From: Nocardioidaceae bacterium
Lineage (GTDB): Bacteria > Actinomycetota > Actinomycetes > Propionibacteriales > Nocardioidaceae
Length of the DNA stretch: 64,000 nt
Reading direction: 5' to 3'
Assembly (NCBI GenBank): GCA_030447865.1
Contig: JAUJOD010000001.1
Coordinates: 916,909 to 980,908 of the forward strand
Both the position numbers and the translations under genes were made by a program. The notes under the pieces are model-generated. The model was given only the letters and a program-made list of their open reading frames with translations. It ran no database searches and was not told the origin of the DNA. Of the stretch, positions 9,232 to 23,274 are shown one piece after another (the first letter of the stretch is position 1; each line of letters opens with the position of its first letter).

Positions 9232-9340
9232 CGGAACTGTCTCTCTCTGTCGACACCTGGCCACTACTAGCGCAGATCATATAGAGCAAGGCACACTGAA
9301 TGGGCAATGATCGTCGGCTCCGCGGGCAGAGGAGGCCACC

Positions 9341-9592
9341 GTGGTTATCTTGTGGATCATGAGTGCTGTCGGTCTGCTCGTCGTGGCGCCGCTGGTGGTC
9401 GTGCTGGCACACCGGGTGATACGGCTAGCTCTTGAGTGCGCTCGGTATGCCGACGACATCCTCGAGCACGGCGTCGGTATCAGTGTGAACGTCGCCCCGG
9501 TGCCAGCCTTGGTCACGACTCGCAGCCTCGTAGCAGAAGTGACCAGTCACGCCGTTGGCTACGTCGGGGCGCTCCGGCGCCTCGTCGGGTAG
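9341..9592 (+). CDS. Mini membrane protein 1 of hydrogenase island
   Basis: The GTG at 9341 has AGGAGG 6 nt upstream (9330-9335). The 83-aa product has one hydrophobic helix (LWIMSAVGLLVVAPLVVVLAHRV) then a helical tail with spaced charges (LALECARYADDILEHG). It resembles in size and topology the small proteins encoded at 20931 and 21179 on the other side of the island. No known domain is recognised. Possible roles are membrane anchor or quinone-side adaptor for the hydrogenase; this is inference. Confidence 0.6.
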   Translation: MVILWIMSAVGLLVVAPLVVVLAHRVIRLALECARYADDILEHGVGISVNVAPVPALVTTRSLVAEVTSHAVGYVGALRRLVG

Positions 9593-9610
9593 CCCCGTCT
9601 CAGGAGCGCC

Positions 9611-9886
9611 ATGTCTGTTGCCGCCATCGCCGCGATCACCGTGACAGGTGTCTTGGTTCTCGCGCTGGCCTTCTATCTCGCCTGGGTCGTCGTGATCTTG
9701 CGCCGGCTCGTCGACACCCTCAGCAAGGTGACGTTCGGGGTCGCAGCCGTCAGTCACCGCGTAAGCCCGATCGGACCGCTGGTCAGTGAGATGAACACCG
9801 ACCTGACGGCGGTGGCGGAAGCACTGGAGGAGCTGGTGTCCGACATCGAGCGAGCCCAGCCTGCCACGGCGTCGTCAGCAAGTTGA
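9611..9886 (+). CDS. Mini membrane protein 2, paralogue of 21451-21756
   Basis: The ATG at 9611 has AGGAG 4 nt upstream. The 91-aa protein has one N-terminal transmembrane helix (AAIAAITVTGVLVLALAFYLAWVVVIL) then LRRLVDTLSKVTFGVAAVSHRV and a heptad-like tail. It aligns with the protein at 21451: shared FYL, LRR, a KV-FGV-A block, IGP-V, and N--LTAV--L. The two are therefore paralogues at the two sides of the hydrogenase genes. Function is unknown; the conserved juxtamembrane block suggests a protein contact. Confidence 0.65.
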   Translation: MSVAAIAAITVTGVLVLALAFYLAWVVVILRRLVDTLSKVTFGVAAVSHRVSPIGPLVSEMNTDLTAVAEALEELVSDIERAQPATASSAS

Positions 9887-9889
9887 GAG

Positions 9890-10090
9890 GTGAAGACTGT
9901 GGCTCTTGAGTTCCGGTGCGCGGACGTCGGCGTCGCGTGCAGCAAGGTCTCGCGCGCCGAAAGCGAAGATGAGCTGATCGCCTCCGTCGCTGCTCACGCG
10001 AAGAGCAAGCACGGCGTCGAGCTCAACGACACGCTCATCGACTACGCCCGCACCAAGGTCCGTAGCTCCGGCCAGGCATCTGGTGAGTGA
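9890..10090 (+). CDS. DUF1059-family small protein
   Basis: A 66-aa soluble protein with the DUF1059 pattern: an N-terminal strand ending in Cys (FRCADVGVACSKV), the SEDELIASVAAHAKSKHG helix and a C-terminal helix. A GTG at 9899, with GAGAGG 8 nt before it, may be the true start instead of 9890. It overlaps the NifU-like gene by 8 nt and is in the same direction as the mini membrane genes, so one transcript is likely. The family has no established activity. Confidence 0.7.
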   Translation: MKTVALEFRCADVGVACSKVSRAESEDELIASVAAHAKSKHGVELNDTLIDYARTKVRSSGQASGE

Positions 10091-10634
10091 ACCAGATCAA
10101 CGGGCTCACGAGTCGCTAGCAGCCTTGACGCCGCTACTTGACCGGCTTGAGGCGTTGCTGGGCGAAGTCGACGGTTATGACGACCCGGTCAGGGACTCCG
10201 TGTTCGAGTTGCTCGACGGCATCGACGCTCTCCACCGGCTAGCTATCCTCCAGCTGAGTCACGCCTTGGGTGACCAGACAGCGCGCCTGAGACAGGAGGA
10301 CCCGGCGGTCAACTGGCTCTTCGAGGCGTACGGCGTCGGGGTCGACGATCGCGAAGCCGCCCAACGCGCTCTGGACCCGATGAAGCCGTACCTGCACGAG
10401 CACGGCGGAGACGTTGAGGTGCTCGACGTACGCGACGGTGTTGTCCACCTGCGAATGACGGGTGCCTGCTCGGGTTGCACCGCATCTGCTATCACCTTGC
10501 GCGAGGGCGTCGAGGAGGCGCTACGAGATGGGCTTCCCGGCTTCAGAGGTCTCGACGTCGAACCGGACGCCGCTGCGAAAGCGCACCCGCCACCCGGCCC
10601 GACGCTCCTGCAGATACAGCCCCGACCGGCCTGA
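10083..10634 (+). CDS. NifU C-terminal-domain protein
   Basis: A 183-aa protein. Residues 1-90 are helical and unrecognised; residues about 93-155 are a NifU-type scaffold domain with HEHGGDVEVLDVRDGVVHLRM and the Fe-S-binding pair C129-S-G-C132. Such domains assemble or carry [4Fe-4S] clusters. In this island the likely client is the hydrogenase small subunit, which needs three clusters (inference). The GTG start at 10083 overlaps the DUF1059 gene, so translation is probably coupled. The gene is convergent with the maturation protease gene. Confidence 0.8.
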   Translation: MSEPDQRAHESLAALTPLLDRLEALLGEVDGYDDPVRDSVFELLDGIDALHRLAILQLSHALGDQTARLRQEDPAVNWLFEAYGVGVDDREAAQRALDPMKPYLHEHGGDVEVLDVRDGVVHLRMTGACSGCTASAITLREGVEEALRDGLPGFRGLDVEPDAAAKAHPPPGPTLLQIQPRPA

Positions 10635-10659
10635 GAGGTGGCCAGCAGCGGCCACCGAG

Positions 10660-11145
10660 TCACCTATGGTGCAGTTCGATGAGCCGCCGGATCTCCGCGA
10701 CAGCTGGCTGCACGGCAGCAGCCGTCGTCGGCGACAAACCTCCCTGGATACGCTCGGTATCAAGCGTCTGCACACCAACGAGCAGGGTGGTGTCGGGCAG
10801 CACCCTGAGCCCGCGGGCGAGCATAAGGGCTCGCTCCGGGGTGGCGTAGTGCATATCGGCCAACTCATCATGGCGCTCGCCAACCGACAAGGCGGCCACG
10901 TCGGCGATGTTCGGGACTTGGGTGATCACGGTGCCGGGGGGACGACCCAAGTCGACGGCGTCGACCACCACCAACACATCGACTCCGGCAAGCAGTTCTT
11001 GGACCAGGTGGATGCCGCCGATCCCAACATCGAGGACCCGTACGTTGTCTGGTAACTCTTCAGCCTGGAGCTGGGCGGCTACGGCGACACCGAATCCGTC
11101 GTCACCTCGCAACGCGTTGCCGAAGCACGCGATGAGCACGCTCAT
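10660..11145 (-). CDS. [NiFe]-hydrogenase maturation protease (HupD/HycI family)
   Basis: The 161-aa product has the family layout: CFGNALRGDDGFGVAVA (GNxLxxDDGxG, with a nickel-sensing acidic ligand), LVVVDAVDLGRPPGTV (second acidic ligand), a central His (MHYATPERAL) and VGVQTLD near the end. These proteases remove the C-terminal tail of the large subunit after nickel is inserted. It starts at the ATG at 11145 and diverges from the TPR gene across a 20-nt gap. It lies 6 kb from the large-subunit gene, beside which a second, degenerate protease is encoded. Confidence 0.88.
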   Translation of the reverse strand: MSVLIACFGNALRGDDGFGVAVAAQLQAEELPDNVRVLDVGIGGIHLVQELLAGVDVLVVVDAVDLGRPPGTVITQVPNIADVAALSVGERHDELADMHYATPERALMLARGLRVLPDTTLLVGVQTLDTERIQGGLSPTTAAAVQPAVAEIRRLIELHHR

Positions 11146-11150
11146 CAGGG

Positions 11151-11165
11151 AAGCGTAGAACGCTT
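11151..11165. promoter_or_regulatory. Palindromic divergent leaderless promoter
   Basis: AAGCGTAGAACGCTT is a 15-bp palindrome with 6-bp arms that fills most of the 20-nt gap between the divergent starts at 11145 and 11166. On the minus strand TACGCT forms a -10 box 6 nt before the ATG; on the plus strand TAGAAC is a weaker match. Both genes would be leaderless. The symmetry could also be an operator. Confidence 0.45.
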
Positions 11166-12398
11166 GTGCAGCCGTTCGAGACTGAACTCGACGAACTGAG
11201 ATCTCGGCTCAGGCGATTCCCTGTCGCCCGATATCCGGTTCAGCACGCCACCTGCCAGTTTCATCTGGGAACGGTCTTGTTGCGGGCTGATCGACCCGAG
11301 GACGCGTTGGCAGCGTTGCAGACGGCGCAAGCGCGCTTCGCTGCCTGCGGAATGGTGCTGGAGCGAGCCAAGGCCGCGAACCTGGTCGGTGTCGCGCTAC
11401 GAACATTGGGGAGGTCGGCGGAAGCGAGCAGGATCTTTGCCGATGCAGCTCGGGACTTCAACCGCGCTGACAAGCCCGAGGAGGAAGGTGCGGCGCTGTT
11501 CAACCGGGGGCTGGTCCTCGCACAGCAAGGCGACTTCTCCGCCGCTCAGTCCGCGCTGCGGCGAGCCGAGGCACTGTTCGCGGCGGCCGGGAGACCAGCT
11601 CAAGCGGCGGCTGCCGCGCGTGAGCACGGTGGTGTCCTGCTTCAGGCGGGCGACGCGGCCACCGCCATTGACCTGCTCTCGCCGGCGGTGGACATGGCCT
11701 GGCAGGGCGGGGACAGCGCAGGGGCGGGCGCTACCGCCAACGTGCTTGGTCTCGCTTATCTGGCTACTGGAGATAACGACCGGGCCATTGAGGCGTTTCG
11801 GCAGGCCCTCAGCGCTCATCCGCGCAGCGTGCGGCCGGCAGACTACGCAATGGCCAAGGCCAACCTCGCCTTGGCTCACGAGCGGCGGGGTGACACGGCG
11901 CAAGCTGTGCTGGCGGGGCAGCAGGCGCTCGGTGTGCCGGCGGTGGCACCACTGGTTCGTGCCCAGGCGCGCGAGCTGCTCGAGCGCTTGCCAGCCGCTT
12001 CGGGCCACGAGCTGTTCGCGGTCTTGGACGAGGAGCCCATGGCTCGATGGCCGGTTGTCGTACGCGAGGAGGTCGTGCGGTGGGCGGACGGTGTCCCCGG
12101 CGCGCGACTTGACGCAGCGGCAGCATGGATCGACGGTCAACTGGGCCGCCCCGACCGCGCCCACGACCTGGCGCAAACGCTCCTGGGAGCTCTGCTCGAG
12201 TTGCCGCCCCCGGGCTACCAACGGGTGGTTACGGCGCTGGTGCAGGCGGTAGCGAGGCGCGACGACGCCGACGCCGACGAGTTCCGCCGGGTCACGCGCT
12301 CAGCCATGGCTCGATTCGCGATCCCGCAGTGGCAGCGGCTGGCAGCGACGTTCGACCAGACGGCCGTGGAGCACGGCCAACCGGCGGCATGGGCGTGA
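11166..12398 (+). CDS. TPR-repeat protein of hydrogenase island
   Basis: A 410-aa soluble, Ala-rich helical protein with about six tetratricopeptide-like repeats over residues 25-280. The clearest are FHLGTVLLRADRPEDALAAL, FNRGLVLAQQGDFSAAQSAL, NVLGLAYLATGDNDRAIEAF and ANLALAHERRGDTAQAV. The C-terminal third is helical without clear repeats. TPR proteins are docking scaffolds, so it may organise maturation factors. The GTG at 11166 follows the palindromic promoter directly. It is followed after 4 nt by the biotin-ligase-like gene, which suggests a two-gene operon. Confidence 0.8.
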   Translation: MQPFETELDELRSRLRRFPVARYPVQHATCQFHLGTVLLRADRPEDALAALQTAQARFAACGMVLERAKAANLVGVALRTLGRSAEASRIFADAARDFNRADKPEEEGAALFNRGLVLAQQGDFSAAQSALRRAEALFAAAGRPAQAAAAAREHGGVLLQAGDAATAIDLLSPAVDMAWQGGDSAGAGATANVLGLAYLATGDNDRAIEAFRQALSAHPRSVRPADYAMAKANLALAHERRGDTAQAVLAGQQALGVPAVAPLVRAQARELLERLPAASGHELFAVLDEEPMARWPVVVREEVVRWADGVPGARLDAAAAWIDGQLGRPDRAHDLAQTLLGALLELPPPGYQRVVTALVQAVARRDDADADEFRRVTRSAMARFAIPQWQRLAATFDQTAVEHGQPAAWA

Positions 12399-12402
12399 CC
12401 GC

Positions 12403-13137
12403 GTGACTGAGGACCTGTCCGCGGCCAGTCTGGCAGCTGCCATGCCGGGGCGACCGGTACGGGCTTACCCTGCCCTGCTGTCCACCGAGGCGGACGCGAT
12501 GGCATGGGCGCGGGGGGGGGCTCCCTCGGGAGCGGTTGTCGTGGCCGACTACCAGGCGGCTCCCAGGGGGCGCGGTGGACTTCCGTGGCAGACGGCGCCA
12601 GGTGAGGGCTTGTCGTTCTCCATGGTCTTCAGACCTTCGCTGCCGTCCGAACGGGAGGGCTGGGGCTACGTGGCCGCCTCGTTGGCACTGGCCGAGACAC
12701 TCGACGGCGCCGACGTGGTGACCCAGTGGCCCGACACCGTTCTGCGGGCCGGTTCCGGCGAGCGGCTGGCCAGTCTCGGAACCCATGTGCAGCTCGGCGC
12801 GACGGGTGTGGACTGGGTGGTGCTGACCGTGCTGATCGAGCAGGCGCAGCCGCCCCGCGAAGCCCTCTTGGCGCGGTGCGTCGCTGCCATCGAAGCGAGG
12901 CTCGCGGACCCGCCAGACACGGTACTGACGGCCTACCGGTCCCGGTGTGCCACCCTCGGCCGCCGGGTCCGGCTACGGCTCGTCCCGATGACCCCCGACG
13001 GTGTGCAGGTGGTCGGAGAAGGCATCGACGTCCGTGGCGACGGCGCGCTGGTCGTGCAGACGGCCCCCGGGCGGCGGGCCGCCGTACGTCCGCACGATCT
13101 CGGACTGATTGACGAGCTGCGCTCTGGAGACACCTGA
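12403..13137 (+). CDS. BirA/LplA-fold protein lacking the catalytic-site lysine
   Basis: The 244-aa product has the layout of the biotin protein ligase catalytic and C-terminal domains without the DNA-binding domain. PRGRGGLPWQTAPGEGLSFS (residues about 54-73) matches the GRGRxGRxWxSPxGxGLYFS ligand loop. TQWPDTVL (107-114) is in the place of KWPND; Lys is replaced by Gln108. The C-terminal V-G-EGIDVRGDGALVV matches the small beta domain (G-A-GID-DGxL). It may bind a ligand without ligase chemistry. A run of nine G (12512-12520) lies in the frame. Confidence 0.6.
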   Translation: MTEDLSAASLAAAMPGRPVRAYPALLSTEADAMAWARGGAPSGAVVVADYQAAPRGRGGLPWQTAPGEGLSFSMVFRPSLPSEREGWGYVAASLALAETLDGADVVTQWPDTVLRAGSGERLASLGTHVQLGATGVDWVVLTVLIEQAQPPREALLARCVAAIEARLADPPDTVLTAYRSRCATLGRRVRLRLVPMTPDGVQVVGEGIDVRGDGALVVQTAPGRRAAVRPHDLGLIDELRSGDT

Positions 13138-13150
13138 AACCGGGTTTCAG
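13134..13150. terminator. Bidirectional hairpin between convergent genes
   Basis: CTGAAACCGGGTTTCAG forms a 7-bp stem with a CGG loop. It overlaps the stop codon of the biotin-ligase-like gene and lies 9 nt before the end of the opposing permease gene, a usual place for a shared terminator. No T-tract follows. Confidence 0.5.
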
Positions 13151-13158
13151 CCATGCGC

Positions 13159-14028
13159 TCATGCACGTAGGGTTGCATCGCCGACGCTGTCAGCCAGGAG
13201 ATTGAGCCCGAGGACCGCGACCAGAATGGCCAGCCCAGGGAAAGCCGCCAACCACCACGCGACCCGCAAGAATCGCTGCCCCTCACTGGCCAGATAGCCC
13301 AGGCTGACGGCGTCGGGATCGGACAGGCCCAGGAAACCCAGACTCGCCTCGATCAGTAAGACCTGCGCGGTGAGTAGACCCATCAAGGTGAACACCGTTG
13401 GTAGCAGATTCGGCCAGAGTTCATGCACAACGATGCGGTAATCAGAGGCGCCCTGGGTTCTGGCGGCTTCAATGAAGTCGCGACGCCGCAGCGACAGGGT
13501 CTGCGATCGGATCACCCGCGCGAGCAGCGGCCAGGAGGTCAAGCCCAGCACGATCACGAGGCGATCGGTTCCGGGTCCGAAGTAGGCGACGACGACGAGC
13601 GCCAGAAAGAAGCGGGGCAACACCTGGAGCGCCTCGGTTCCACGCATCAAGACGTCATCGAGCCATCCGCCCCGGTAACCCGACACGATGCCGACCGTGA
13701 TGCCGATCAGGAAGACAAGCAAGCCAACCCCGCTCACTGTGATGAGGGAGGTCCGGGCGCCGTAGATGACACCGCTCAGCACGTCTCGACCGAGCGCATC
13801 GGTCCCCATGGGGTGAGTCGCCGTCGGCGGTGACAGCGACGGACCGTCGATCGCGCGAGGATCTGTCGGAGCGAGGAATGGAGCCAGTAGGCCCACACAG
13901 ATCAGAGCCAAGGTCAACGTCGCCCCGATGACTCCCGCTGGCCGCGCGAGCCGGCGCATGATCTGCCGGCCTGGGGTGGCGACGGCAGGATCGGACGGCT
14001 TGAGGGATGCGTCAGGAGAAAAGGACAC
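13159..14028 (-). CDS. ABC transporter permease, DppC/NikC type
   Basis: A 289-aa inner-membrane permease of the peptide/nickel family. It has an N-terminal helix, the THPMGTDALGRDVLSGVIYGARTSL signature of DppC/NikC proteins, five further helices, and an EAA loop (EAARTQGASDYRIVVHELWPN) that would contact an ATPase. It overlaps the upstream permease gene by 17 nt. The three-gene set encodes binding protein and two permeases only; no cognate ATPase is in the window. Its place in a nickel-enzyme island favours nickel import (inference). Confidence 0.85.
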   Translation of the reverse strand: MSFSPDASLKPSDPAVATPGRQIMRRLARPAGVIGATLTLALICVGLLAPFLAPTDPRAIDGPSLSPPTATHPMGTDALGRDVLSGVIYGARTSLITVSGVGLLVFLIGITVGIVSGYRGGWLDDVLMRGTEALQVLPRFFLALVVVAYFGPGTDRLVIVLGLTSWPLLARVIRSQTLSLRRRDFIEAARTQGASDYRIVVHELWPNLLPTVFTLMGLLTAQVLLIEASLGFLGLSDPDAVSLGYLASEGQRFLRVAWWLAAFPGLAILVAVLGLNLLADSVGDATLRA

Positions 14029-14977
14029 GTGGGTCCAGCCAGACGTAGATGAGATCGGTGATCAGGTTGGCCGTCATCACAGTGAGTGAGACGAGGAGGA
14101 ATATGCCGAGAATGATCGGGGAGTCCTGGTCCCGCAAGGCGTCGACGAGCAACCGACCCATCCCTGGCCAGCCGAACACAACTTCGACGACGACCGCTCC
14201 CGACGCCAGGTGCGCAACCCGGTTGCCAATTACGGTGACTACGGGCATAACGGCCCCACGCAAGGCATGCTTGCCAACCACCATCGGCGGTGGTGAGCCC
14301 TTAGCGCGTGCTGTGCGCACGTGATCGCTGCCGAGTTCTTGCAACAACCCCACTCTCGTTAGCCGGCCGATAACAGCCACTTCTGGGGCCGCCAACACCA
14401 GTGCCGGAAGAACGAGATGGTGGGCAACGTCGACGGCATGGCTGAAACCGTTGGACGGGGTGACTGCGGACGTCATCCCTTGCACCGGGAACCATCCCGC
14501 TCCAAGTGCGAACAGCAAAATCAGCGCCTGACCGATCAGAAAGACCGGGGCGGCGTACGTTGCCAGCAATACGGTGGTCGCCGTTGTGTCTTGCCATGCC
14601 CGTCGCCTCGTCGCGGTAAAGATGCCGAATCCAAGCCCAAGAATGCTGGCTATGGTCAGCGCGGTGGCGGTCAACAGCAGCGTCGCAGGTAACCGCTCGA
14701 GGATGATTTGGCTGGCCGGACGACCTTGCACGTACGAGGTTCCGAGATCGCCGTGCGCCAGATTCGCGACGAACGTGAACAACTGCTCGTGCAGTGGCTG
14801 GTCCAGTCCGAACTTCGCCCTCATGAAGGCGTAATACTCTGCGTCGCCGTGCTCTCCCGCGAGCGCCAGCACCGGGTCACCGGGGGCGAGATGGATCAAC
14901 GCGAAACCCACGAGCAAGATCAGGGCACTCGTCGGGACAAGCTGGGCCAGTCGCCGAAGGAGGTATCCCCAGCTCAC
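14012..14977 (-). CDS. ABC transporter permease, DppB/NikB type
   Basis: A 321-aa permease starting MSWGYLLRRLAQLVPTSALILLVGFALIHLAPGDPV, the typical DppB/NikB N-terminus. It has about six membrane helices and an EAA loop (RTARAKGSPPPMVVGKHALRG). The ATG overlaps the stop of the binding-protein gene (ATGA type), and its own 3' end overlaps the NikC-type gene, so the three are tightly coupled. It should form the heterodimeric membrane pore with that protein. Confidence 0.85.
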   Translation of the reverse strand: MSWGYLLRRLAQLVPTSALILLVGFALIHLAPGDPVLALAGEHGDAEYYAFMRAKFGLDQPLHEQLFTFVANLAHGDLGTSYVQGRPASQIILERLPATLLLTATALTIASILGLGFGIFTATRRRAWQDTTATTVLLATYAAPVFLIGQALILLFALGAGWFPVQGMTSAVTPSNGFSHAVDVAHHLVLPALVLAAPEVAVIGRLTRVGLLQELGSDHVRTARAKGSPPPMVVGKHALRGAVMPVVTVIGNRVAHLASGAVVVEVVFGWPGMGRLLVDALRDQDSPIILGIFLLVSLTVMTANLITDLIYVWLDPRVLFS

Positions 14978-16611
14978 TGCCGGCAGTAAGCGGCCTCGGC
15001 GAAGTGGCCCGCCTGGGAAAATCCTCCGCAGCGCGACGAATAGACCCGGGTGGCCTCCGTTTCCACCACCCAGAAGTACGGCAGGTCCTCAACCAGAATC
15101 TCTTGAATCTGCCGGTACACCTCGCCGCGCTCGCCCGGGTCGACCGTCGTCCTGGCTTGGTCAAATAACGAGTCGACCGAGGGATTGCTGTACGCGGCGG
15201 CGTTGGAAAACGGAACAGGGCCGATGGTGGAGGAGACGTACATGCGCTTGACACCTATTTCGGGGTCAGCTCCGTTGCAGTACGAAATGATGTTGCTGTC
15301 GAAATCGCGGTCAACGAAGACCGTCTCCGCGAAAATATCCGGCTCCTGCGGGTCTAACTCGACGTCGATTCCGACGTCGGCCAGCTGCGCTTTGAAGAGA
15401 TCGCCGTATGCGTCGAAGCTGGTGAACAGTGTGAAGCCGAAGGACAACGGTGTCCCGTCCGGAATGCCTTGCACACCTTGGGCGACTCTGGTTCCGTCGC
15501 CTTGGCGTATCCAGCCCGCTTCATCGAGCAGGTCCTCAGCTGTTTGTTTGTCGTAGGTGGGCATGTCGGGCAGATCGTCGGCGTGGGCGAAGTCGATCCC
15601 ACTGGAGATCGGCGCCTCCGCCACCTTGCCCTGGCCAAACAGCACACGATCGACGAACTGCTGGGAGTCGATGGCGGTGGCAACGGCCCGGCGGGTGCGC
15701 ACGTCTTGAAAGACTGGCTTCTCCAGGTTGAAGCTCACGGTCATGATGCAGTTGGAACCGCCAGGGTTGACGGTGGTCCGAAGAAACTCGAAACCGCCGT
15801 CCTCCTCGAGTCGTGCGAGGTCGGCGCCGGGCACCCCGAACAACCAGTCGACCTCTCCAGCCTCAAGGGCAATGACTTGGCTCTCGGCGTCAGGGATCAC
15901 CCGGAGTACGACTTCGTCGAGGAGTGGTTGACCGTCGATGAAGTAGTCGGGGTTTCGCACCAGCCGGATCTCTGCTCCGGGCTTGTAGGACTCGAAGGCA
16001 AACGGTCCGGTACCCACTGGCTCGAGGTTGGCCGGATTCTCCAGCGGATCAGTCCCTGCGTAGATGTGCTCGGGAATGATCGGCGCCTCGGTCACGTCGA
16101 GCTGGAGCGGAAACGGCGCGTACGGCTCTTTGAAGCGAAACTCGACAGTTCGCTCGTCAGGTGTCGAGATTGACTCCAGCGCCTGCCCCACCGACGCCGC
16201 GGTGCGCGAATGATACTTCAGCAGCACCTTCTCGAACGAGAATTTGACGTCCGCTGAGGTGAAGGGCTCGCCATCGTGCCAGGTCACGCCTTCGCGCAGG
16301 TGGAATCTGTACAGGGCACCGTTGTCCTCGACGTCCCAGGACTCCGCCAGTTCGCCGACCGGCTCACGGTCCGGCGTCAGGCTCACAAGCCCGTTGTACA
16401 TCAGTTCTGAGGCCGTGTGGACGTCACCGCTTGTGGTGATCGCCGGGTTCAGTTGGCCAGGGTCCGCGGTGATCGCCGCAACGAGCGTGCCGCCTCGGAC
16501 GGGCGAGTCGGCAGCTGGCTCGGGAGTGCCCTCAGTGGTGCTGCAGGAGACCAGCAGGACGGCGGAGACCACCAGGGCTGAGCCTCGACGAAGCATTCGT
16601 TCTCCGCTCAC
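14974..16611 (-). CDS. Family-5 ABC substrate-binding lipoprotein (peptide/nickel)
   Basis: A 545-aa extracytoplasmic solute-binding protein. The signal peptide ends in a lipobox LLVSC (Cys23). The mature part has the family-5 features: RGGTLVAAITADPGQLNPA, a TWHDGEPFTSADVKFSFEKV block and a VGTGPFAFESYKPG block, as in DppA/NikA. It is the first gene of a binding-protein/NikB/NikC set. Nickel, peptide or another ligand cannot be told apart from sequence; the hydrogenase context favours nickel. Confidence 0.85.
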   Translation of the reverse strand: MSGERMLRRGSALVVSAVLLVSCSTTEGTPEPAADSPVRGGTLVAAITADPGQLNPAITTSGDVHTASELMYNGLVSLTPDREPVGELAESWDVEDNGALYRFHLREGVTWHDGEPFTSADVKFSFEKVLLKYHSRTAASVGQALESISTPDERTVEFRFKEPYAPFPLQLDVTEAPIIPEHIYAGTDPLENPANLEPVGTGPFAFESYKPGAEIRLVRNPDYFIDGQPLLDEVVLRVIPDAESQVIALEAGEVDWLFGVPGADLARLEEDGGFEFLRTTVNPGGSNCIMTVSFNLEKPVFQDVRTRRAVATAIDSQQFVDRVLFGQGKVAEAPISSGIDFAHADDLPDMPTYDKQTAEDLLDEAGWIRQGDGTRVAQGVQGIPDGTPLSFGFTLFTSFDAYGDLFKAQLADVGIDVELDPQEPDIFAETVFVDRDFDSNIISYCNGADPEIGVKRMYVSSTIGPVPFSNAAAYSNPSVDSLFDQARTTVDPGERGEVYRQIQEILVEDLPYFWVVETEATRVYSSRCGGFSQAGHFAEAAYCRQ

Positions 16612-16759
16612 TAAAGACGGCGGCCGTCAGAAAGCAGGCCGCCAGGAGCAGCCGCCAAACCGCAAGGAAGCGTCTCATATTCCCGCGTGAGACAGGTAGG
16701 TGTGCGCAGCAGCTAGCGGGTGTCCGAAACCGTGCCAGCACTTGCGGAGACGGTCGGAG

Positions 16760-17515
16760 TCACAGTGAGGAGGAAGCCTCCAGCGCCTGCAGTCGGTCGA
16801 GTTCCTCGACCAGCGCCCACCACAGGGCCCAGTCGGTCGAGTTCATCCCTTCCCCACTGTGGGTGCTGGTGAGCGCTTGCTTCAGCCGGTCGCGCAGGAC
16901 GAAGCTGCGTCCCCAGCGTGCCCGCTCGTGGAGACGCCGCAGTTCACTGAGCAGCGCCCTGATCTCGGTGAGCGCAGGGGAGACGCTGATCCGGTCGCCC
17001 CCCACGAGAGGGCGCAGCTCGTCGGCCAGGTCGAAGAGCGGCTGCCGCGCGATCTCGGTTCGCACGAGGTGGAGCGCCTGACTCAAACCCTGTTCGGCGG
17101 CGGGGCTCAGCCCTTCGCCCGGTCCGAGCGAGGCTGGCTCGACCTCGATAGCCACCGTGCGACGAGGGAGCGTTCCGAAGGCGCCGGCGACCTCGATGAT
17201 CAAGTCGATCCCGACGTAACCCGTCACCGCATCACCGACCGCCGCCTGGACTTGTCCAACATCGAGGTGGGGAGCGGTGACGACGCAGCGCTCGACTTCT
17301 CCAGCGCGGCGTCCTCTGCGGACGGCTCCCACCAGCAGGAACGCACTCGGGCGCAGCTCCTCCAATCGCTGGCTGACCGCGACTGCGCCGTAGTGCAGCT
17401 CCTCGATGAGCACCTCAGGTGCAAACGACTCTCTTTGGAGCCGCTCCGCGGCGATGCGGCCGAGATCGAGGTCTCCTTGGAACAACTCCCCGACGCCCCC
17501 GACGAGGACTGTCAC
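16760..17515 (-). CDS. Degenerate hydrogenase maturation protease with helical extension
   Basis: The 251-aa protein keeps the HupD/HycI outline over residues 1-160 (VLVGGVGELFQGDLDLGRIAAERL at the N-terminus, VEVEPASLGPGEGLSPAAEQGL-like end). Key positions differ: the GNxLxxDDGxG loop reads VGELFQGDLDLG and the second acidic motif VVVDA is LLVGAVRRG, so an acidic nickel ligand is lost. Residues about 165-251 form an added helical region (ALLSELRRLHERARWG, WALWWALVEELDRLQALE). The start is 15 nt after the large-subunit stop, so the two are co-transcribed. It may be a chaperone that holds the large subunit rather than cutting it. Confidence 0.65.
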   Translation of the reverse strand: MTVLVGGVGELFQGDLDLGRIAAERLQRESFAPEVLIEELHYGAVAVSQRLEELRPSAFLLVGAVRRGRRAGEVERCVVTAPHLDVGQVQAAVGDAVTGYVGIDLIIEVAGAFGTLPRRTVAIEVEPASLGPGEGLSPAAEQGLSQALHLVRTEIARQPLFDLADELRPLVGGDRISVSPALTEIRALLSELRRLHERARWGRSFVLRDRLKQALTSTHSGEGMNSTDWALWWALVEELDRLQALEASSSL

Positions 17516-17530
17516 GGCAGGAGCAAGGGG

Positions 17531-19432
17531 TCAGTCCCCGCCGCAGGAGCAGGTGTTGACCTCCCGGACGACCTCCCCCTCACCGGTGTGGACGTGCGTC
17601 GTGCACGGCATACAGGGGTCGAAGCTCCGGATGGCCCGCAGCATGTCAATGCTGGTGAAGCGCGCAGGATCCGACACGTCCTCGATGATCGGCGTATTCA
17701 TCACCGCCTCCTCGTAGGGACCGGGCTGGCCCCACGGGTCGCGCGGAGACGCATTGATCGTCGAGGGAGTGCAGATCTGGTAGTTGGTGATCTTGCCCTT
17801 GTCCATCACGAGGTGGTGAGTCAGCCAGCCTCGTCCGGCACCCCACCAGCCGACGCTCACGCGCTCGTCCTTGGGGATAGCCTTCTCCAGCGCTGACGGG
17901 TCGAGCGCAGCCACGCGCTTCTCACCCTGCTTCATCAACTTGTATGCCTCGAGCAGGCTCTCCAGCGCCACCAACTGGCTGAACAGGTAGTGGTAGGCGC
18001 GGCCGCGGTTGCGCTCGAACGCGTTCCAGCGCTCTGGAACCCGCCACTCGACCTCGCGCTCCCCCACCTCTCCCTTCGGCACGAGCAAGCGCATGCTGGA
18101 GCCCGTTGCGGAGATGAAGTCACTCGCGGGCAGCTTCTGCGCCATGGCCGTCATCAGCAAGCGTGAGTAGCAACCTGCCTCGACGACCTTGCGGTCCCAG
18201 CGCGGCGTGCACGCCCAGGTGTACTTGTCCTTCCAGTCCCGGGCGCCCGGCTTGGGCAGCGTGCGCTTGTTCCACGGGTGGTACGGCGAGAGCGGGTTGC
18301 CGAGCATGTCGTGGCTGTAACGCGATGTCGACGACTCCTCGTAGTAGGAGTGCTCGACGAACTCCTCCCAGCCGATGTTGATGTCGGTGAGCCTCGTCGT
18401 GACGAGCTCTCCGTCGATGACGACACCAGGAGTGGACCAACGCTTCTCGCCCCAGGCGTTGCAGTTCTCGTACGTCGCATCGTAGGCGTACGGGTCGTCC
18501 CAGTAGCCCGGATCGATGTGGTTGGTCGGCCGGTAGCCGACAAACTGGTAGCGATCGTCCGCCTCATAGAAGAACGCTGGGATGTCATCCCAGACTGCCA
18601 TCATCCGCTGGGCGTAGTCGAAGATCTTGCCGAGCCGGGAGTGAAACTCGTTCAGCGTCTGCAGCGTGAGAGTCGTCGACACTCCGCCGGGTACGACGTT
18701 CTCCGGGTGCGGGTACTTCCCGGTGAGCAGTACCACCATCTCCCGCGACAACCGGGTGAACTCCAAACCCTCCCTGTACAACGCCCCGGTCAGCGGGTTC
18801 AGTGCCGTCATGAGGTCGGCCATGGTCTTGAAGCCGTGAATGTGCTCGTTGACGCACGACCACTTCTCCGCCAGCGGCCACAGCTCGGGGTTCGACGACT
18901 TGATGACAGCTTCGGAGTAGTCGGGGCCGGCCAGGAGGTAGAGGTGCAGCGGGTTGTCGTACCCCATCTCCGCCGCCTCGGTCATGTTGCGGACCACCGT
19001 CCCCAGCGGCGGCGGGCAGATGCCCATTGCCTGCTCGATCGCGTACGCCGCCGCGTGCGCGTGCACTCCGCCGCAGACGCCGCAGGCTCTGGACGCCACG
19101 AAGATGGCGTCGCGGGGGTCACGACCCATGAGGATGACTTCGTAGCCCCGGAACAGGGTCGCCTGCGCATGTGAGTCGAGGTACGCACCCTTTTCCAAGT
19201 CGGCCGTCACATGCACCGCGAGTGCTCCCGCGATCCGGGTGACCGGATCCATGTTCATGTCCTTGATGTGGCCGTTTCGGGCCACGAGCCGCTCGATGCC
19301 TTCCCGCCGCTCGACATCGCTGCGGGCGAGGTGGGGCTTAGCTACCGTCACGTCGTACGGGTTGGGGATGCCGCCCCGAAGCGTTGCGTTGCCGCGGTCG
19401 TCGAACTCGACCGGGAGAGTCTTGAAACACAT
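17531..19432 (-). CDS. [NiFe]-hydrogenase large subunit (group 1h-related)
   Basis: A 633-aa catalytic subunit. The N-terminal nickel site is RACGVCGGVH (Cys117, Cys120, His124) and the C-terminal site SFDPCMPCTTH (Cys607, Cys610), where the protease should cut after His613. The body is close to group 1h large subunits (for example VPGGVSTTLTLQ, STPGVVIDGELVTT, TDINIG). A 20-residue tail after the cleavage site ends CSCGGD, an unusual Cys pair. The ATG at 19432 has AGGAG about 8 nt upstream and follows the small-subunit gene by 19 nt. It should split H2 in the cytoplasm with the small subunit. Confidence 0.93.
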   Translation of the reverse strand: MCFKTLPVEFDDRGNATLRGGIPNPYDVTVAKPHLARSDVERREGIERLVARNGHIKDMNMDPVTRIAGALAVHVTADLEKGAYLDSHAQATLFRGYEVILMGRDPRDAIFVASRACGVCGGVHAHAAAYAIEQAMGICPPPLGTVVRNMTEAAEMGYDNPLHLYLLAGPDYSEAVIKSSNPELWPLAEKWSCVNEHIHGFKTMADLMTALNPLTGALYREGLEFTRLSREMVVLLTGKYPHPENVVPGGVSTTLTLQTLNEFHSRLGKIFDYAQRMMAVWDDIPAFFYEADDRYQFVGYRPTNHIDPGYWDDPYAYDATYENCNAWGEKRWSTPGVVIDGELVTTRLTDINIGWEEFVEHSYYEESSTSRYSHDMLGNPLSPYHPWNKRTLPKPGARDWKDKYTWACTPRWDRKVVEAGCYSRLLMTAMAQKLPASDFISATGSSMRLLVPKGEVGEREVEWRVPERWNAFERNRGRAYHYLFSQLVALESLLEAYKLMKQGEKRVAALDPSALEKAIPKDERVSVGWWGAGRGWLTHHLVMDKGKITNYQICTPSTINASPRDPWGQPGPYEEAVMNTPIIEDVSDPARFTSIDMLRAIRSFDPCMPCTTHVHTGEGEVVREVNTCSCGGD

Positions 19433-19451
19433 GCGCTCGCTCCTAGGTGGT

Positions 19452-20813
19452 TCAGGCTCGGTGTGGGGGGCTGCCGCCACTGGGAGCCTCGTCGCGCTTG
19501 CCCCAGACGTCGGCGTCATTGCGTGCGGTGTCGGAGGAGCGCCGCAGTGTGTCGTAAAACTTGTGGCTGGCGTGAGAGAGCGCCGACGGCTCAGACTTCT
19601 CCCGCGAGAAGGCGCTCGGCGTCGCACCCTGCCGATCCCACCGGACCTCGCGGTTGAGGTTGTTGTTGCTGAATTTGCGCAGCGGCCGAATCACGCTGCC
19701 CACCATTCTCGAGACGGTGGTCGACGCCATCGAGCCCGGCGGGCGCTTGTAGAAGGGGGTGAACTTGTCGGGGAACCCTGGCATCGTGCAGCCGATACAG
19801 GCGCCGCCCGCGTTCATGCAACCGCCCACATGGTTGATCGCACCGCGAGAGGTGATGTTGCAGTTGACGACCGGCCCCCAGCAGCCAATCTCGACGAGGC
19901 ACTCGGGGTCACCGAACTCTTTGGCGAACGAGCCCTCCTCGTAGTAGGCGCCGCGCACACAGTTGCGGTGCACCGTCTCGCCGAACAGCCATGCCGGCCT
20001 GCCAAGCTCATCGAACTCCGGCAGCGGCCCGAAGCCCTGGAGGAAGTACAAGACGGCGGCCACGGTCTCGTTGAAGTTGTCACCGATCGGTGGGCATCCG
20101 GGGACGTTGACGACGGGAACACCGAGCACGGAGCGGTAGTCCTTGCCGAGGAAGTCCATGAGGCTCATCGCCCCGGTGGGGTTACCCTCGGCGGACGGTA
20201 TCCCACCCCAGGTGGCACAGGTGCCGATCGCGATCATGGCAGCCGAGTTGGGGGCCAGCCGCGCGACCCATTCGGTGGCAGTGACCGGTCGCAGTTCGCC
20301 GTTCGGCCCCCACGGTTCCTCGCCTTGGGACGACCAGTAGCCACCGGCCGCATTGGCCACCAACTCGTCCATGATCGAGCCCTCGAGGATGACGACGTAC
20401 GGCGCGTCGAGCTCTCCGGCGATGGCCTGCTCGGCTGGCCGAAGGTAGTGGGCGCCGGACTCGACGTTCAACACCGGGTGGTGCAGGACCACCCGCGGCA
20501 GGCCGGGGTGCGCGCCCAGCAGCAGGCTCTCGAGAGAGGGAGTCGACGCGCCGGTGACGGCCACGCTGCAGCCGTCGCAGCTCGCCCCGGCGAACCAGAA
20601 GGCGTGCACCTTCTCCAGCGGCCCGAAACGGGTGGGGCTGCTTGCCGTCGCCACCGGCGAGAGCATGTCCTCGGTCATCGCGCCGGAGGGCATCCCGAAG
20701 GCACCCATGTGTGACATGTCGTGGAACTGAGTTACTGGACCCAGCTCGTCGAGGAGCTCCTGGGCGGGGGTGCGCGGCTCTCTTACCGGCGACCTGGTCT
20801 GCCGATCTGCCAT
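19452..20813 (-). CDS. [NiFe]-hydrogenase small subunit, no Tat signal, CDGC proximal motif
   Basis: A 453-aa electron-transfer subunit. The ATG at 20813 has CCAGGAG just upstream. There is no twin-arginine signal; about 70 polar residues precede AFWFAGASCDGCSVAVTG (Cys79, Cys82). Further ligands are GTCATWGG, VPGCPPIG, a VHRNC/PECLVEIGC distal set and a VVNC/GGCMNAGGACIGC medial set, enough for three clusters. Group 1h enzymes have Asp at the second position (CDGD); here it is Cys. The C-terminus carries an extra charged stretch of about 100 residues after MPGFPDKFTPF. It is the first gene of the small/large/protease-like operon. Confidence 0.92.
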   Translation of the reverse strand: MADRQTRSPVREPRTPAQELLDELGPVTQFHDMSHMGAFGMPSGAMTEDMLSPVATASSPTRFGPLEKVHAFWFAGASCDGCSVAVTGASTPSLESLLLGAHPGLPRVVLHHPVLNVESGAHYLRPAEQAIAGELDAPYVVILEGSIMDELVANAAGGYWSSQGEEPWGPNGELRPVTATEWVARLAPNSAAMIAIGTCATWGGIPSAEGNPTGAMSLMDFLGKDYRSVLGVPVVNVPGCPPIGDNFNETVAAVLYFLQGFGPLPEFDELGRPAWLFGETVHRNCVRGAYYEEGSFAKEFGDPECLVEIGCWGPVVNCNITSRGAINHVGGCMNAGGACIGCTMPGFPDKFTPFYKRPPGSMASTTVSRMVGSVIRPLRKFSNNNLNREVRWDRQGATPSAFSREKSEPSALSHASHKFYDTLRRSSDTARNDADVWGKRDEAPSGGSPPHRA

Positions 20814-20856
20814 GGCGGCTCCTGGAGGCGAGACGAAACAACGCGGGCAAGCACCG

Positions 20857-20894
20857 TAGGTGCACAGTACACCTAGCGTGATTTTCGGTGTACT
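20857..20894. promoter_or_regulatory. Operator region between divergent hydrogenase operons
   Basis: TAGGTGCACAGTACACCTA (20857-20875) is a 19-bp palindrome with one mismatched pair. A further half site, GGTGTACT (20887-20894), is inverted to AGTACACC (20866-20873) with 13 bp between. On the minus strand a TACGGT -10-like box (20853-20858) touches the palindrome; on the plus strand TTGACA (20895-20900) directly follows the half site. A regulator bound here could repress both operons. The PadR protein of the plus operon is the obvious candidate (inference). Confidence 0.6.
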
Positions 20895-20930
20895 TTGACA
20901 ACGCAAACGTCCTGGCCAGCGGGAGGCGTC

Positions 20931-21182
20931 GTGAACGGGTGGATACTCGGCTACCTGATCGGCGCTGTGGTGGTGCTGCTCGTGGTGGCCCTGCTGCTAT
21001 TGATGATCGTCGGCGCTCGGCGCACCGCACAGACCGCTGAAGCCATCGAAGCTCACCTCCTCGAAGCGCGAGATAGAACCGCAGGGCTTTGGGAAGTGCA
21101 GACCACGACGCTCACCGCGGCGCGGATCGCGGAGGCCGCCACCAGCGCACGAGAGGCGTTGTCGGGAGGAGATCGCCGATGA
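20931..21182 (+). CDS. Mini membrane protein 3 of hydrogenase island
   Basis: The GTG at 20931 has GGGAGG 4 nt upstream (20921-20926). The 83-aa product has one long hydrophobic helix (WILGYLIGAVVVLLVVALLLLMIVGA) and a helical, charged tail (TAQTAEAIEAHLLEARDRTAGLW). It is the first gene of the plus-strand accessory operon, and overlaps the next gene by ATGA. The topology matches the proteins at 9341 and 21179. A single-helix membrane anchor or docking protein for the cytoplasmic hydrogenase is a reasonable guess; no domain is recognised. Confidence 0.65.
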   Translation: MNGWILGYLIGAVVVLLVVALLLLMIVGARRTAQTAEAIEAHLLEARDRTAGLWEVQTTTLTAARIAEAATSAREALSGGDRR

Positions 21183-21454
21183 GCTCGACTGGCTATTGGT
21201 GGCTCGCCCTCGGGCTGGGGCTCGTCGTGGCCGTGGTGGCCGTCCTGTTGCTGCACGTCTTCTTGATGCAGGTCTGGCGGGTGGAACGCGCAGCCGATCG
21301 GGTCTGGATGGCAGGGAAGCAGCTCGCCGCGAACACCTCCACCACCTGGATGTTGGAAGCCACGGCCGACGAGTTGGGCAAGCTCATCGACGAGGCGGGG
21401 CGGCACGAACAACTGTTGGGGGCCGGTTCGGCCTCAACGCGGAGTGCACCGTGA
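21179..21454 (+). CDS. Mini membrane protein 4 of hydrogenase island
   Basis: The 91-aa product starts with ATG overlapping the previous stop (ATGA). One hydrophobic helix (WWLALGLGLVVAVVAVLLLHVFLM) is followed by QVWRVERAADRVWMAGKQLAANT and an amphipathic tail ending ELGKLIDEAGRHEQLLG. It lacks Cys and catalytic motifs. Its stop overlaps the next start (GTGA), so three mini membrane proteins are made in fixed succession, which suggests that they assemble together. Confidence 0.65.
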   Translation: MSSTGYWWLALGLGLVVAVVAVLLLHVFLMQVWRVERAADRVWMAGKQLAANTSTTWMLEATADELGKLIDEAGRHEQLLGAGSASTRSAP

Positions 21455-21756
21455 AAGCCCTTCTGGTAGTCCTCACCTTGATCGAGATCGTTCTCGTCGC
21501 AGGGGTGCTCGTGTTCTATCTGGTGGCCATCGCTCGCTCCCTGCGACGCACGGCCGTGCTGTTGGGCAAGGTGGCCTTCGGCGTGCGCGCCATCGAGACG
21601 CAGTGTGGCGTCATCGGCCCGTCGGTCACCACGATCAACGAGCGACTGACCGCAGTCTCCGCCGGTCTCGCCGCGCTGACTGGCTTGGCTCAGGGTCGAG
21701 CACCAAACGGCCGGCCAGCACCTGTTCAGTCGACCGGTGCCCACCGGGTCGACTGA
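21451..21756 (+). CDS. Mini membrane protein 5, paralogue of 9611-9886
   Basis: The 101-aa product starts at GTG 21451, overlapping the previous stop. One transmembrane helix (ALLVVLTLIEIVLVAGVLVFYLVAIA) is followed by RSLRRTAVLLGKVAFGVRAIETQ, then IGPSVTTINERLTAVSAGLAAL. This juxtamembrane pattern (LRR, KV-FGV-A, IGP-V, N--LTAV) is shared with the protein at 9611, so the pair arose by duplication or is a conserved two-copy component. The C-terminus is a polar tail. Confidence 0.65.
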   Translation: MKALLVVLTLIEIVLVAGVLVFYLVAIARSLRRTAVLLGKVAFGVRAIETQCGVIGPSVTTINERLTAVSAGLAALTGLAQGRAPNGRPAPVQSTGAHRVD

Positions 21757-21758
21757 TC

Positions 21759-22145
21759 GTGGACGAGCTGCACCCGCCGAAATCGGAGGCACTGCGCGCG
21801 CTGTACTGGCGAAGTGAGATTCTCCAAGTCATGTATTGGCTACGCGGTGAAGGACTCGGTGAGGTCGTCGACGCCGCCCTACTCGAGCGCTTTCTTGGCG
21901 TCGACGTGAGCATCGGCTTGGGGTACCTCGACCGGCTCGTGACCGAGGGCTACCTTGACCGCCGGCCCGGCGGGTATGTCTTGTCCGAGGAAGGGTTGAC
22001 TGAGGGAAAGACGGAGTTCGCCCTCAGCTTCGCCGACCTGACCCGGCCAGCACACGGCGAATGCAGCGAAGACTGCTGGTGTCACGTGTCCGTCGAGGAG
22101 GCGTTGGCCTGCGCTGCCGACCGCCGTACGGAGGCTGGGACGTGA
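21759..22145 (+). CDS. Winged-helix protein with C-x3-C-x-C-H cluster
   Basis: A 128-aa protein from GTG 21759, 2 nt after the previous stop. Residues about 10-85 look like a winged helix-turn-helix (ILQVMYWLRGEGLGEVVDAALLERFL, then YLDRLVTEGYLDRRPGGYVLSEEGL). Residues 101-109 hold Cys102, Cys106, Cys108 and His109 (ECSEDCWCH), a likely metal or Fe-S site. It could be a metal or redox sensor for the island, or a hydrogenase-associated adaptor. The start of the PadR gene overlaps its stop (GTGA). Confidence 0.6.
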   Translation: MDELHPPKSEALRALYWRSEILQVMYWLRGEGLGEVVDAALLERFLGVDVSIGLGYLDRLVTEGYLDRRPGGYVLSEEGLTEGKTEFALSFADLTRPAHGECSEDCWCHVSVEEALACAADRRTEAGT

Positions 22146-22513
22146 GTCGCGCCTCTCAGGTCGACGTTGCCGTCACCTTGCCACGCAACTACCTGCGCCC
22201 CTGCTTGTTGCTCTTATTGGGCGAAGGGACGGCGCACGGGTACGAGTTGATGGATCAGGTTGCCGAGCTTGGCCTCAGCAAGGTCGACCCGGCAGGCCTG
22301 TACCGCTGCTTGCGGGCCATGGACGAGGAGGGGCTGGTGGAGTCCCGCTGGGAACCCTCAACAGTCGGTCCGGCCCGACGCACCTACGGTCTGACCGATG
22401 AAGGCCGCGACTGGTTGCGCGGCGTGTCTGAGTCGCTTGCCGACTTGAATCGCGTCCTGGACCTGTTCCAACGCCGCTACGGCGTCCTTGAGGATCGCGA
22501 CCCGTCACCATGA
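22142..22513 (+). CDS. PadR-family transcriptional regulator
   Basis: A 123-aa protein. LLLLLGEGTAHGYELMDQVAELGLSKVDPAGLYRCLRAMDEEGLVESRW is the PadR winged helix (HGYEL and LYRxLRxMxxEGLV), followed by the beta wing RRTYGLTDEGRDWL and a short C-terminal dimerisation helix. PadR proteins usually repress neighbouring genes by binding palindromes; a candidate operator lies 1.3 kb upstream at 20857-20875. The start GTG overlaps the stop of the winged-helix gene, and its stop overlaps the ATPase D start. Confidence 0.85.
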   Translation: MSRASQVDVAVTLPRNYLRPCLLLLLGEGTAHGYELMDQVAELGLSKVDPAGLYRCLRAMDEEGLVESRWEPSTVGPARRTYGLTDEGRDWLRGVSESLADLNRVLDLFQRRYGVLEDRDPSP

Positions 22514-23274
22514 GGCTCGCGGTAGCCGGCAAGGGCGGGGCCGGCAAGACCACCATCAGTGCGACCGCAGCCAGGCTCACCGCGCGCACTGGTCGGCGCG
22601 TCGTGGCCATCGACGGTGACGCCAACCCCAACCTCGCTGTGGCGCTCGGGCTTGCGCCGATGGCCGACTCTCGGATACAGGCGCTGCCGCCGAGCTTGGT
22701 GTCGCGCCGGCTCGGCGGCGCCGGCCTAATCGCGCCACTCGACGATATGCTCGACCGGTTCGCGCTGCCCGCTCCCGACGGCGTACGGCTTCTGGCCATG
22801 GGCGCCCCGGCGCACGCCGACGAAGGATGCCTGTGTTCCGCGCATGCAGTGGTGTCGGCCGTGTTGGAGGATCTAGGTGCGCACCCGGACTGGTTCACGG
22901 TGGTCGACATGGAGGCGTCACCGGAGCACCTGAGCCGGGGAACGATCAGACACGCCGACGTGGTGTGTCTGGTTGCCGAGCCGTATTACCGGTCGCTGGA
23001 GACGGTACGCCGGATGGCTGCGCTGGCGGCCGAGCTTCCGGTGGCGCGCATTGTGGTCGTAGCCAACAAGGTTCGCTCAGCAGGAGACGGTGAGGCGATC
23101 GCGGAGTTCTGCGACCGCCACGGGTTCGAGCTGGTCGGCTCGGTGCCTTGGTGCGACGGTGTCGCGGCAGCTGATCGGGCGCGCCAAGCGGTCATCGATG
23201 TGCCCGGAACCGAACCGGTGACGGTGGCGGTAGCCGGCATCTGCGAGGCGCTCGGCATTCCCGTCGCTGTGTGA
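22510..23274 (+). CDS. CooC-like ATPase D (CLC)
   Basis: A 254-aa SIMIBI-class ATPase: MRLAVAGKGGAGKTTI (deviant Walker A), VAIDGDANPNLAVALG, and the metal-binding pair Cys107-L-Cys109 (DEGCLCSAH), with DMEASPEHLSRG as the switch-II region. It most resembles ATPase C in having the DMEA-EHLSR block. It is translationally coupled to the PadR gene (ATGA) and to the MFS gene (GTGA). It should be a nucleotide-dependent nickel carrier for the hydrogenase (inference from the CooC family). Confidence 0.8.
   Translation: MRLAVAGKGGAGKTTISATAARLTARTGRRVVAIDGDANPNLAVALGLAPMADSRIQALPPSLVSRRLGGAGLIAPLDDMLDRFALPAPDGVRLLAMGAPAHADEGCLCSAHAVVSAVLEDLGAHPDWFTVVDMEASPEHLSRGTIRHADVVCLVAEPYYRSLETVRRMAALAAELPVARIVVVANKVRSAGDGEAIAEFCDRHGFELVGSVPWCDGVAAADRARQAVIDVPGTEPVTVAVAGICEALGIPVAV

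Follow-up and report, generated by a model that had tools for sequence, protein, structure and literature searches.

Small membrane protein genes beside a hydrogenase

We analysed a 64,000-nucleotide stretch of the genome of a Nocardioidaceae bacterium (GenBank assembly GCA_030447865.1, contig JAUJOD010000001.1; hereafter the window) in which five genes for very small membrane proteins accompany a [NiFe]-hydrogenase. The adjacent hydrogenase genes lie on the reverse strand and encode the large subunit (L; 17531..19369, PF00374, start inferred) and the small subunit (S; 19452..20813, PF14720/PF01058, ATG start inferred), on which no Tat signal was seen by eye. The five small genes are on the forward strand, and all five open reading frames are present as the initial annotation had listed them: A1 (9341..9592, 83 amino acids (aa); identified from its open reading frame, hydropathy and family alignment), A2 (9611..9886, 91 aa), B1 (20931..21182, 83 aa), B2 (21179..21454, 91 aa) and B3 (21451..21756, 101 aa). 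B1-B3 lie upstream of S and A1-A2 about 8 kb beyond L, so that the five are split 3+2. Stop and start codons overlap by 4 bases between B1 and B2, between B2 and B3 and between B3 and the gene at 21753, and A1 and A2 are closely spaced on the same strand with a DUF1059 gene (9890) and a NifU-domain gene (10083).

Each protein has one hydropathic stretch near its N terminus (best 19-residue Kyte-Doolittle mean 2.6-3.5), in agreement with the single N-terminal helix first proposed, and no Pfam or NCBIfam family scored over its cut-off for any of the five. The similarity noted between the 9611 and 21451 products is real: a search of the window's own genome with A2, to a limit of E 10, returned only A2 itself and its paralogue, the 21451 gene, at 39% identity and E 8e-8. 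Profile-profile comparison of A2 and B3 gave E 1.8e-21 over the full length and E 2.9e-10 for the tails alone, with none of 40 column shuffles as good. The five proteins fall into two paralogous groups, (B1, B2, A1) and (B3, A2). Within the first, the tails alone gave firm support for B1-B2 (E 4e-7) and weak support for B1-A1 and B2-A1 (E ~2e-3, 0 of 40 shuffles), in a comparison in which the automatic cut shortened the A1 and A2 tails. The six cross-group pairs reached a probability of 1-12% with tails alone, although in four of them no shuffle attained the observed score, and the full-length B1-A2 match (E 1e-5) may be explained by shared hydropathy of the transmembrane (TM) segments. These alignments stop short of showing that the two groups share an ancestor.

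All five genes are under purifying selection, with pairwise ratios of nonsynonymous to synonymous substitution (dN/dS) of 0.07-0.11 against locus L010 (dS saturated for B2), 0.00-0.15 against L001 and 0.24-0.47 against the more distant L003 (the prefixes L and G number the loci and genomes searched below). In 130 of 137 family members (A1 24/25, B2 29/31, B1 26/28, B3 33/35, A2 18/18; loci up to L091, counting duplicate contigs L072 and L073 and excluding proteins longer than 135 aa), more lysine and arginine residues follow the TM segment than precede it, which by the positive-inside rule suggests that the tails are cytoplasmic. AlphaFold2 predicted one continuous helix through TM segment and tail, over residues 3-85 of B2 and 2-83 of B3, with confidence (pLDDT) dropping to 50-60 toward the C-terminal end of both, each from 17 close relatives. 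In each of the five families the hydropathy of the tail repeats with a helical period of 104-106 degrees, a signal that only 0-3 of 2000 shuffles matched in strength. Among PDB entries, designed coiled coils match the B3 profile, which we read as coil-like composition, not kinship. The multi-genome family alignments show conserved tails, predicted to be helical, rather than the disordered and unconserved ones that would have spoken against a functional role; an A-x-N-T motif in the B2 tail is invariant in 21 aligned sequences. The best conserved residues across the five families are W, T, N, L, G, A, Y and P. Among the best four Cys/His/Trp/Tyr columns listed per family there was no conserved cysteine column and no invariant histidine, the top histidine column reaching 74% and in B2 only, so the five proteins themselves probably bind no cofactor and carry no electrons. 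Nor do they resemble cytochrome b-type anchors, with one hydropathic stretch in place of several TM helices and no invariant histidine.

Company of the cassette in other genomes

We searched with profiles the window's own genome, 395 others of its phylum (Actinomycetota) and the genomes reached through 18 hydrogenase loci; 14 control genomes were searched for TIGR02416 and DUF948 only. Large-subunit homologues in the 396 same-phylum genomes fell into identity bins of 70-100% (a compact group with the window's enzyme), 48-59% (1l-type) and 38-43%, weaker matches being other hydrogenases. We read the 38-43% bin, together with named records from pHG1, Streptomyces and Kitasatospora, as group 1h, for which identities to the window's large subunit ranged over 36-43%; the labels '1l-type' and '1h' denote this identity and the gene layout, not reference sequences, and no published hhmL sequence was identified among the sequences covered.

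A large-subunit scan of genome contigs yielded the 18 loci. One of them, L001, has the same large subunit as the window, without a difference, and matches the window at 95-100% at most genes. Members of the small families were found in 17 of these loci, L018 being the exception. All five, split 3+2, occur in ten (L001, L003, L004, L007-L011, L014, L015; in L008, B2 and B3 occupy one shared reading frame), a single four-gene set (B1, A1, B2, B3) in L005, L006, L012 and L013, and the B set alone on the short contigs L002, L016 and L017. Two further loci with 70-80% identical large subunits, L074 and L075, have all five, in L075 in one run. In the 48-59% bin, members were present in 10 of 14 loci, the other four (L081, L086, L088, L089) being short or ending near or inside the large-subunit gene. 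In three of the ten, L078, L080 and L083, S and L enclose exactly five small genes, which run B1-B2-B3-A1-A2. This is where the group 1l proteins HylTM1-5, five short predicted TM proteins, are described (Ray et al. 2022, PMC9561532, citing earlier work). Our 1m-trained profiles matched the first four genes of these loci at E 3e-8 to 3e-17 and the fifth slightly better with B3 than with A2. A tree in which A2 and the fifth genes form one clade was not rejected (approximately unbiased test, p-AU 0.56, with few columns and with 27 names, near-copies, partial sets and divergent rows, excluded), so the B3/A2 duplication may predate the split of the clusters. The window's five proteins thus appear to correspond to HylTM1-5 split in two, with B1, B2 and B3 at the HylTM1, HylTM2 and HylTM3 positions and A1 and A2 at those of HylTM4 and HylTM5, an identity that rests on layout, the loci themselves being called 1l by layout; in the window the five genes do not lie between S and L.

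The initial annotation had described two sets of paralogous proteins flanking the hydrogenase. Their paralogy holds, but they are one five-member set in two paralogous groups: contiguous B1-B2-B3-A1-A2 runs in L078, L080, L083, L085, L097, L098 and L103, and A1-A2-B1-B2-B3 runs in L092-L096, L100 and L101, rule out two independent sets. We also discarded the idea that the cassette is a feature of all high-affinity hydrogenases, as no small-family match (E <= 0.05) was found in 21 group 1h loci (L021-L023, L054-L071).

The B2 profile was positive in 37 and the B3 profile in 39 of the 396 genomes. Loci L092-L111 (n=20) come from 18 genomes that are positive for B2 but lack a 1l/1m large subunit, two of the loci being from G167, and from G103 (B3 only). 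In 11 of these 20 loci (L092-L098, L100-L103), genes for carbon monoxide dehydrogenase (CODH), coxM, coxS and coxL, are neighbours of the cassette, at a distance of about 6 kb in L103, and all 11 have a TIGR02416 score over the cut-off and an AYRCSFR loop, which we take to be the mark of form I CODH. Seven (L092-L096, L100, L101) share the order coxM-S-L-I-G-A1-A2-B1-B2-B3 on one strand, with the cassette directly behind coxG; L097, L098 and L103 have the order B1-B2-B3-A1-A2; and L102 reads coxG-A1-A2-B1-B2-B3 with longer paralogues beyond. CoxG adjoins the cassette on the 7.2 kb contig L099, and the contigs of L107 and L108 end in a gene for a hydrogenase small subunit. None of these gas-enzyme genes was found in L109 or in L104-L106, L110 and L111, which belong to one GTDB family. 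The hydrogenase linkage first proposed is strongly supported by co-conservation; the CODH loci rule out a hydrogenase-specific cassette. In the window's genome there was no CoxL match at E 1e-200, and one B2 query and one B3 query found no match in a plasmid collection.

Several other surroundings were seen. B1-B2-B3 in L104 follow a gene for a 1600-aa DsbH-like (thioredoxin-domain) protein, in a locus that also has a penicillin amidase gene, and L105 and L110 have open reading frames of similar length; in L106 and L111, A1-A2 are near a DUF1059 gene. In L109 (960-2399, 8329-10330), about 6 kb separate the five-gene cassette from a gene for the RuBisCO large subunit, an interval that includes a transketolase gene, and no gas dehydrogenase was found in its 11.8 kb. 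In L122 (8054-12286), a five-gene cassette is directly upstream of an Mrp/Mbh-type antiporter gene, about 42 kb from a gene for a 73%-identical hydrogenase large subunit on the same contig. Longer paralogues (~170-225 aa) adjoin cassettes at L075:17556-18832, L099:3031-4865, L102:9012-10205, L103:11769-13227 and L106:11897-13090, and one longer-paralogue tail in L075 repeats short I-, N-, T- and A-rich units.

To quantify linkage, we hand-picked one best B2 place per cassette, setting aside weaker and neighbouring paralogue matches, and measured distances from start to start, taking 32 large-subunit matches of at least 48% identity as 1l/1m and 36 as 1h (five fragmentary 38-43% matches, two in G028 and one each in G184, G264 and G270, none on a cassette contig, were excluded). 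This gave 47 cassette places, distributed over 37 genomes. A 1l/1m large-subunit gene is found within 20 kb of 23 of them and CoxL within 20 kb of 11, and none of the 36 group 1h genes has a cassette that close; one 1h gene (G100) is within 25 kb of a cassette that itself adjoins CODH. A 1l/1m large subunit or a TIGR02416 match over the cut-off was present in 33 of 37 B2-profile carriers and 36 of 359 non-carriers (Fisher p 1.5e-24, phylogeny not corrected), and B2 in 19 of 20 genomes with a 1l/1m large subunit. Genomes with group 1h were weakly enriched among carriers (7/37 versus 28/359, p 0.03), without linkage. A lack of co-occurrence with the hydrogenase, which would have undone the original proposal, was thus not what the loci and the 396 genomes revealed.

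The cassette also appears to be swapped between hosts and enzymes. The large subunits of L005 and L006 are 88% identical to the window's, whereas their B2 proteins are only 29-30% identical, compared with 54-60% in other loci with 88-89% identical large subunits. In the cassette tree (52 of 63 sets, those with at least three members, with long branches at L084, L122, L106 and L085, and with L072 and L073, contigs of L015 and L014, excluded), L005 and L006 group with L012 (Thermoleophilaceae), L013 and L082, and their cassette genes stand between protease-like and BirA-like genes (L005:14272-15231, L006:14264-15280). In these two loci, the cassette seems to have been replaced by a distant type while the hydrogenase stayed. 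CODH-linked cassettes fall in more than one place among the hydrogenase-linked ones, with at least three label changes in this quick tree with some long branches.

Other genes of the hydrogenase cluster

The nearest solved structure to both hydrogenase subunits is 5aa5, HofG for the large (E 2e-132) and HofK for the small subunit; these form the group 1h enzyme of Cupriavidus necator H16, as described in PMC9561532. Behind A2 follow, on the forward strand, genes for a DUF1059 protein (9890..10090, PF06348), directly adjoining, and a NifU-domain protein (10083..10634, PF01106). The gene behind B3 (21753..22145, forward) encodes a conserved protein, winged-helix-like by eye, with no Pfam family over its cut-off, a homologue of which adjoins B3 in 11 of the 18 loci. 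Further along the B1-B3 string is a CooC/MinD-type ATPase gene (22510..23274, forward, PF01656), and four such genes occur in this one cluster (6941-9264 and 22510-23274). Accessory families over their Pfam cut-offs are the protease at 10660 (PF01750), NifU, CbiA-type ATPases, TPR, BPL_LplA_LipB and DUF1059; a second protease-like gene, at 16760, is only just below its NCBIfam cut-off, and the profile of a HypC-like neighbour matches the annotated HypC of pHG1. The gene list given for group 1m in PMC9561532 comprises a protease, FeS assembly, CooC, TPR, BirA-like and DUF1059 genes and two single-TM proteins of 82-92 aa. With adjacent S and L genes and this full accessory set, including TM products of 83 and 91 aa, the window's cluster matches the group 1m type by gene list.

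Two features of the window stand apart from the cassette. A peptide/nickel-type ABC transporter (two permeases and a binding protein; 13159-16611) lies between the BirA-like and protease-like genes, a place where L001 alone among the 18 loci has one, some contigs ending before it. A DNA methylase (PF01555) and an XcyI-type restriction endonuclease (PF09571) at 27584-29882 form a restriction-modification pair.

A putative membrane platform and its known counterparts

We lean, with some reserve, towards the view that the products of the five genes assemble into a single heteromeric platform in the membrane, at which cytosolic trace-gas dehydrogenases dock and can reach quinone. Each protein would span the membrane once, with its tail inside, extending as an amphipathic, coiled-coil-like helix, and the tails together would stand up from the membrane as a bundle. 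Docked to it would be the group 1m hydrogenase here and, in other loci, a 1l-type hydrogenase or form I CODH, and the bundle would bring the electron-donating site of the enzyme within reach of menaquinone, as the HucM stalk does for Huc; the NifU-domain protein of the A1-A2 string may be an electron relay. Assembly of the five into a single complex, binding of the enzymes by this complex and passage of quinone through it to the enzyme are steps that we infer. The served enzymes share a soluble cytosolic body and the need to reach membrane quinone, and the platform is the most economical reading. The initial annotation had suggested that the small proteins anchor the hydrogenase or shuttle its electrons; anchoring or docking is the best reading of the pattern, whereas shuttling is not supported, no cysteine column standing out and the best histidine column reaching 74%, in B2 only. 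A more specific version, which we regard as possible though doubtful, is that the cassette is a portable five-subunit quinone-coupling adapter, passed between unrelated enzymes and shared by 1m/1l hydrogenases and form I CODH, with a hetero-oligomeric hydrophobic conduit like the HucM tube.

Several points weigh against the platform. No physical interaction or phenotype is known for the five, and the single-chain AlphaFold2 models (predicted TM-score, pTM, 0.38-0.40, from 17 close relatives) are uninformative on a complex. No kinship with HucM was found: all 20 matches of the B2 profile to PDB chains, to E 10, were coiled coils or unrelated proteins, and HucM was not among the best 60 of 75 matches of the B3 profile to the same limit, in a chain set whose inclusion of HucM is unconfirmed. 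Most CoxL matches over the cut-off (46 of 57) have no cassette within 20 kb, so the cassette is optional for CODH, not a rule, and CoxG, a known membrane anchor, is already in most cassette-bearing CODH loci. Three 1m-type loci (L018, L076, L077) lack the cassette in the DNA covered, which at L076 and L077 is ~7-10 kb on either side; two of these genomes have cassettes elsewhere, and that of L018 has a weak B2 match only (E 2.5e-6), with B1 and B3 matches beside it. Finally, 13 of the 47 cassette places have no 1l/1m large subunit or CoxL within 20 kb. Four of the 13 adjoin a hydrogenase S gene (G017, G211 and two on G236:C110) and one adjoins CoxG (G189); of the remaining eight, the six whose neighbours were inspected (all but G141:C541 and G264:C77) adjoin DsbH-like/penicillin amidase genes or similar open reading frames, RuBisCO, UvrA or an Mrp-type antiporter.

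Alternatively, the five could be membrane-located assembly, maturation or stability factors that act in biogenesis and not in the working enzyme, as the maturation-type neighbours (protease PF01750, CooC-type ATPases, TPR, BirA-like and HypC-like genes) and the position right behind coxI/coxG in seven CODH loci would allow. Hydrogenase and CODH, however, have unrelated cofactors and maturation routes, which makes a shared maturation factor hard to see, while reaching the quinone pool is a need common to both; group 1h enzymes, kin of 1m, also do without the cassette. We therefore consider a role in biogenesis unlikely. Slightly less probable again is a general membrane-organizing or stress coiled-coil system, merely co-regulated with trace-gas oxidation. 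Such a system would accommodate the eight of 47 places at which no adjoining gas-enzyme gene was found (six of the eight inspected), the longer paralogues in some loci and the resemblance of A2, alone among the five, to DUF948 (PF06103; E 0.0079), but that match reaches 16.8 bits against a cut-off of 37.2, no protein encoded in the window's own genome passes the DUF948 cut-off, and 33 of 37 carriers have one of the enzymes. That the five are themselves electron carriers between hydrogenase and quinone, by way of haem, Fe-S or flavin, is a general expectation from the cytochrome b subunits described for other group 1 hydrogenases (PMC6883350); the residue columns and the lack of any Pfam or NCBIfam family over its cut-off make it highly improbable.

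If the platform exists, two trace-gas scavenging enzymes of soil bacteria, for H2 and CO, share one coupling device. The analysis yields a short list of five genes and a prediction for their deletion, the loss of both membrane binding and gas respiration, and cultured Geodermatophilaceae (L003, which is Blastococcus saxobsidens DSM 44509, and L005-L007) carry the cluster.

HylTM1-5 have been published before, and so has the pair of TM proteins of group 1m. The three loci with the layout described for HylTM1-5 hold homologues of each of the window's five proteins in fixed order, although in the window the five are split B1-B3/A1-A2 and S and L are adjacent. The two group 1m single-TM proteins (82-92 aa, PMC9561532) fit A1 and A2 by size and gene company, but the passages of that paper on group 1m name neither B1-B3 nor a kinship with HylTM1-5. 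No published description of such proteins with CODH was found in a survey of titles and abstract openings, which did not extend to the original HylTM paper or the supplements of PMC9561532. That group 1m has a set of five, and that this set also accompanies CODH, therefore looks new, with an unseen report possible. The window's NifU-domain protein (10083) resembles by domain HhyE/HucE, without which M. smegmatis is reported not to oxidize H2 (PMC6883350). For soluble high-affinity hydrogenases, a link between membrane association and high affinity has been described (PMC7174314). CoxG is described as recruiting soluble dehydrogenases, CODH among them, to the membrane (PMC11962113); it belongs to a different family (PF06240) and is present alongside the cassette in CODH loci. 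HucM of the group 2a hydrogenase Huc is described as a tube of helices through which menaquinone reaches the enzyme, serving as scaffold and quinone conduit (PMC10017518). Like HucM, the window's five are predicted to bridge the gap from the membrane to a soluble high-affinity hydrogenase with amphipathic helices; unlike them, HucM is one protein of 188-189 residues, peripherally membrane-associated, that forms a homotetrameric tube.

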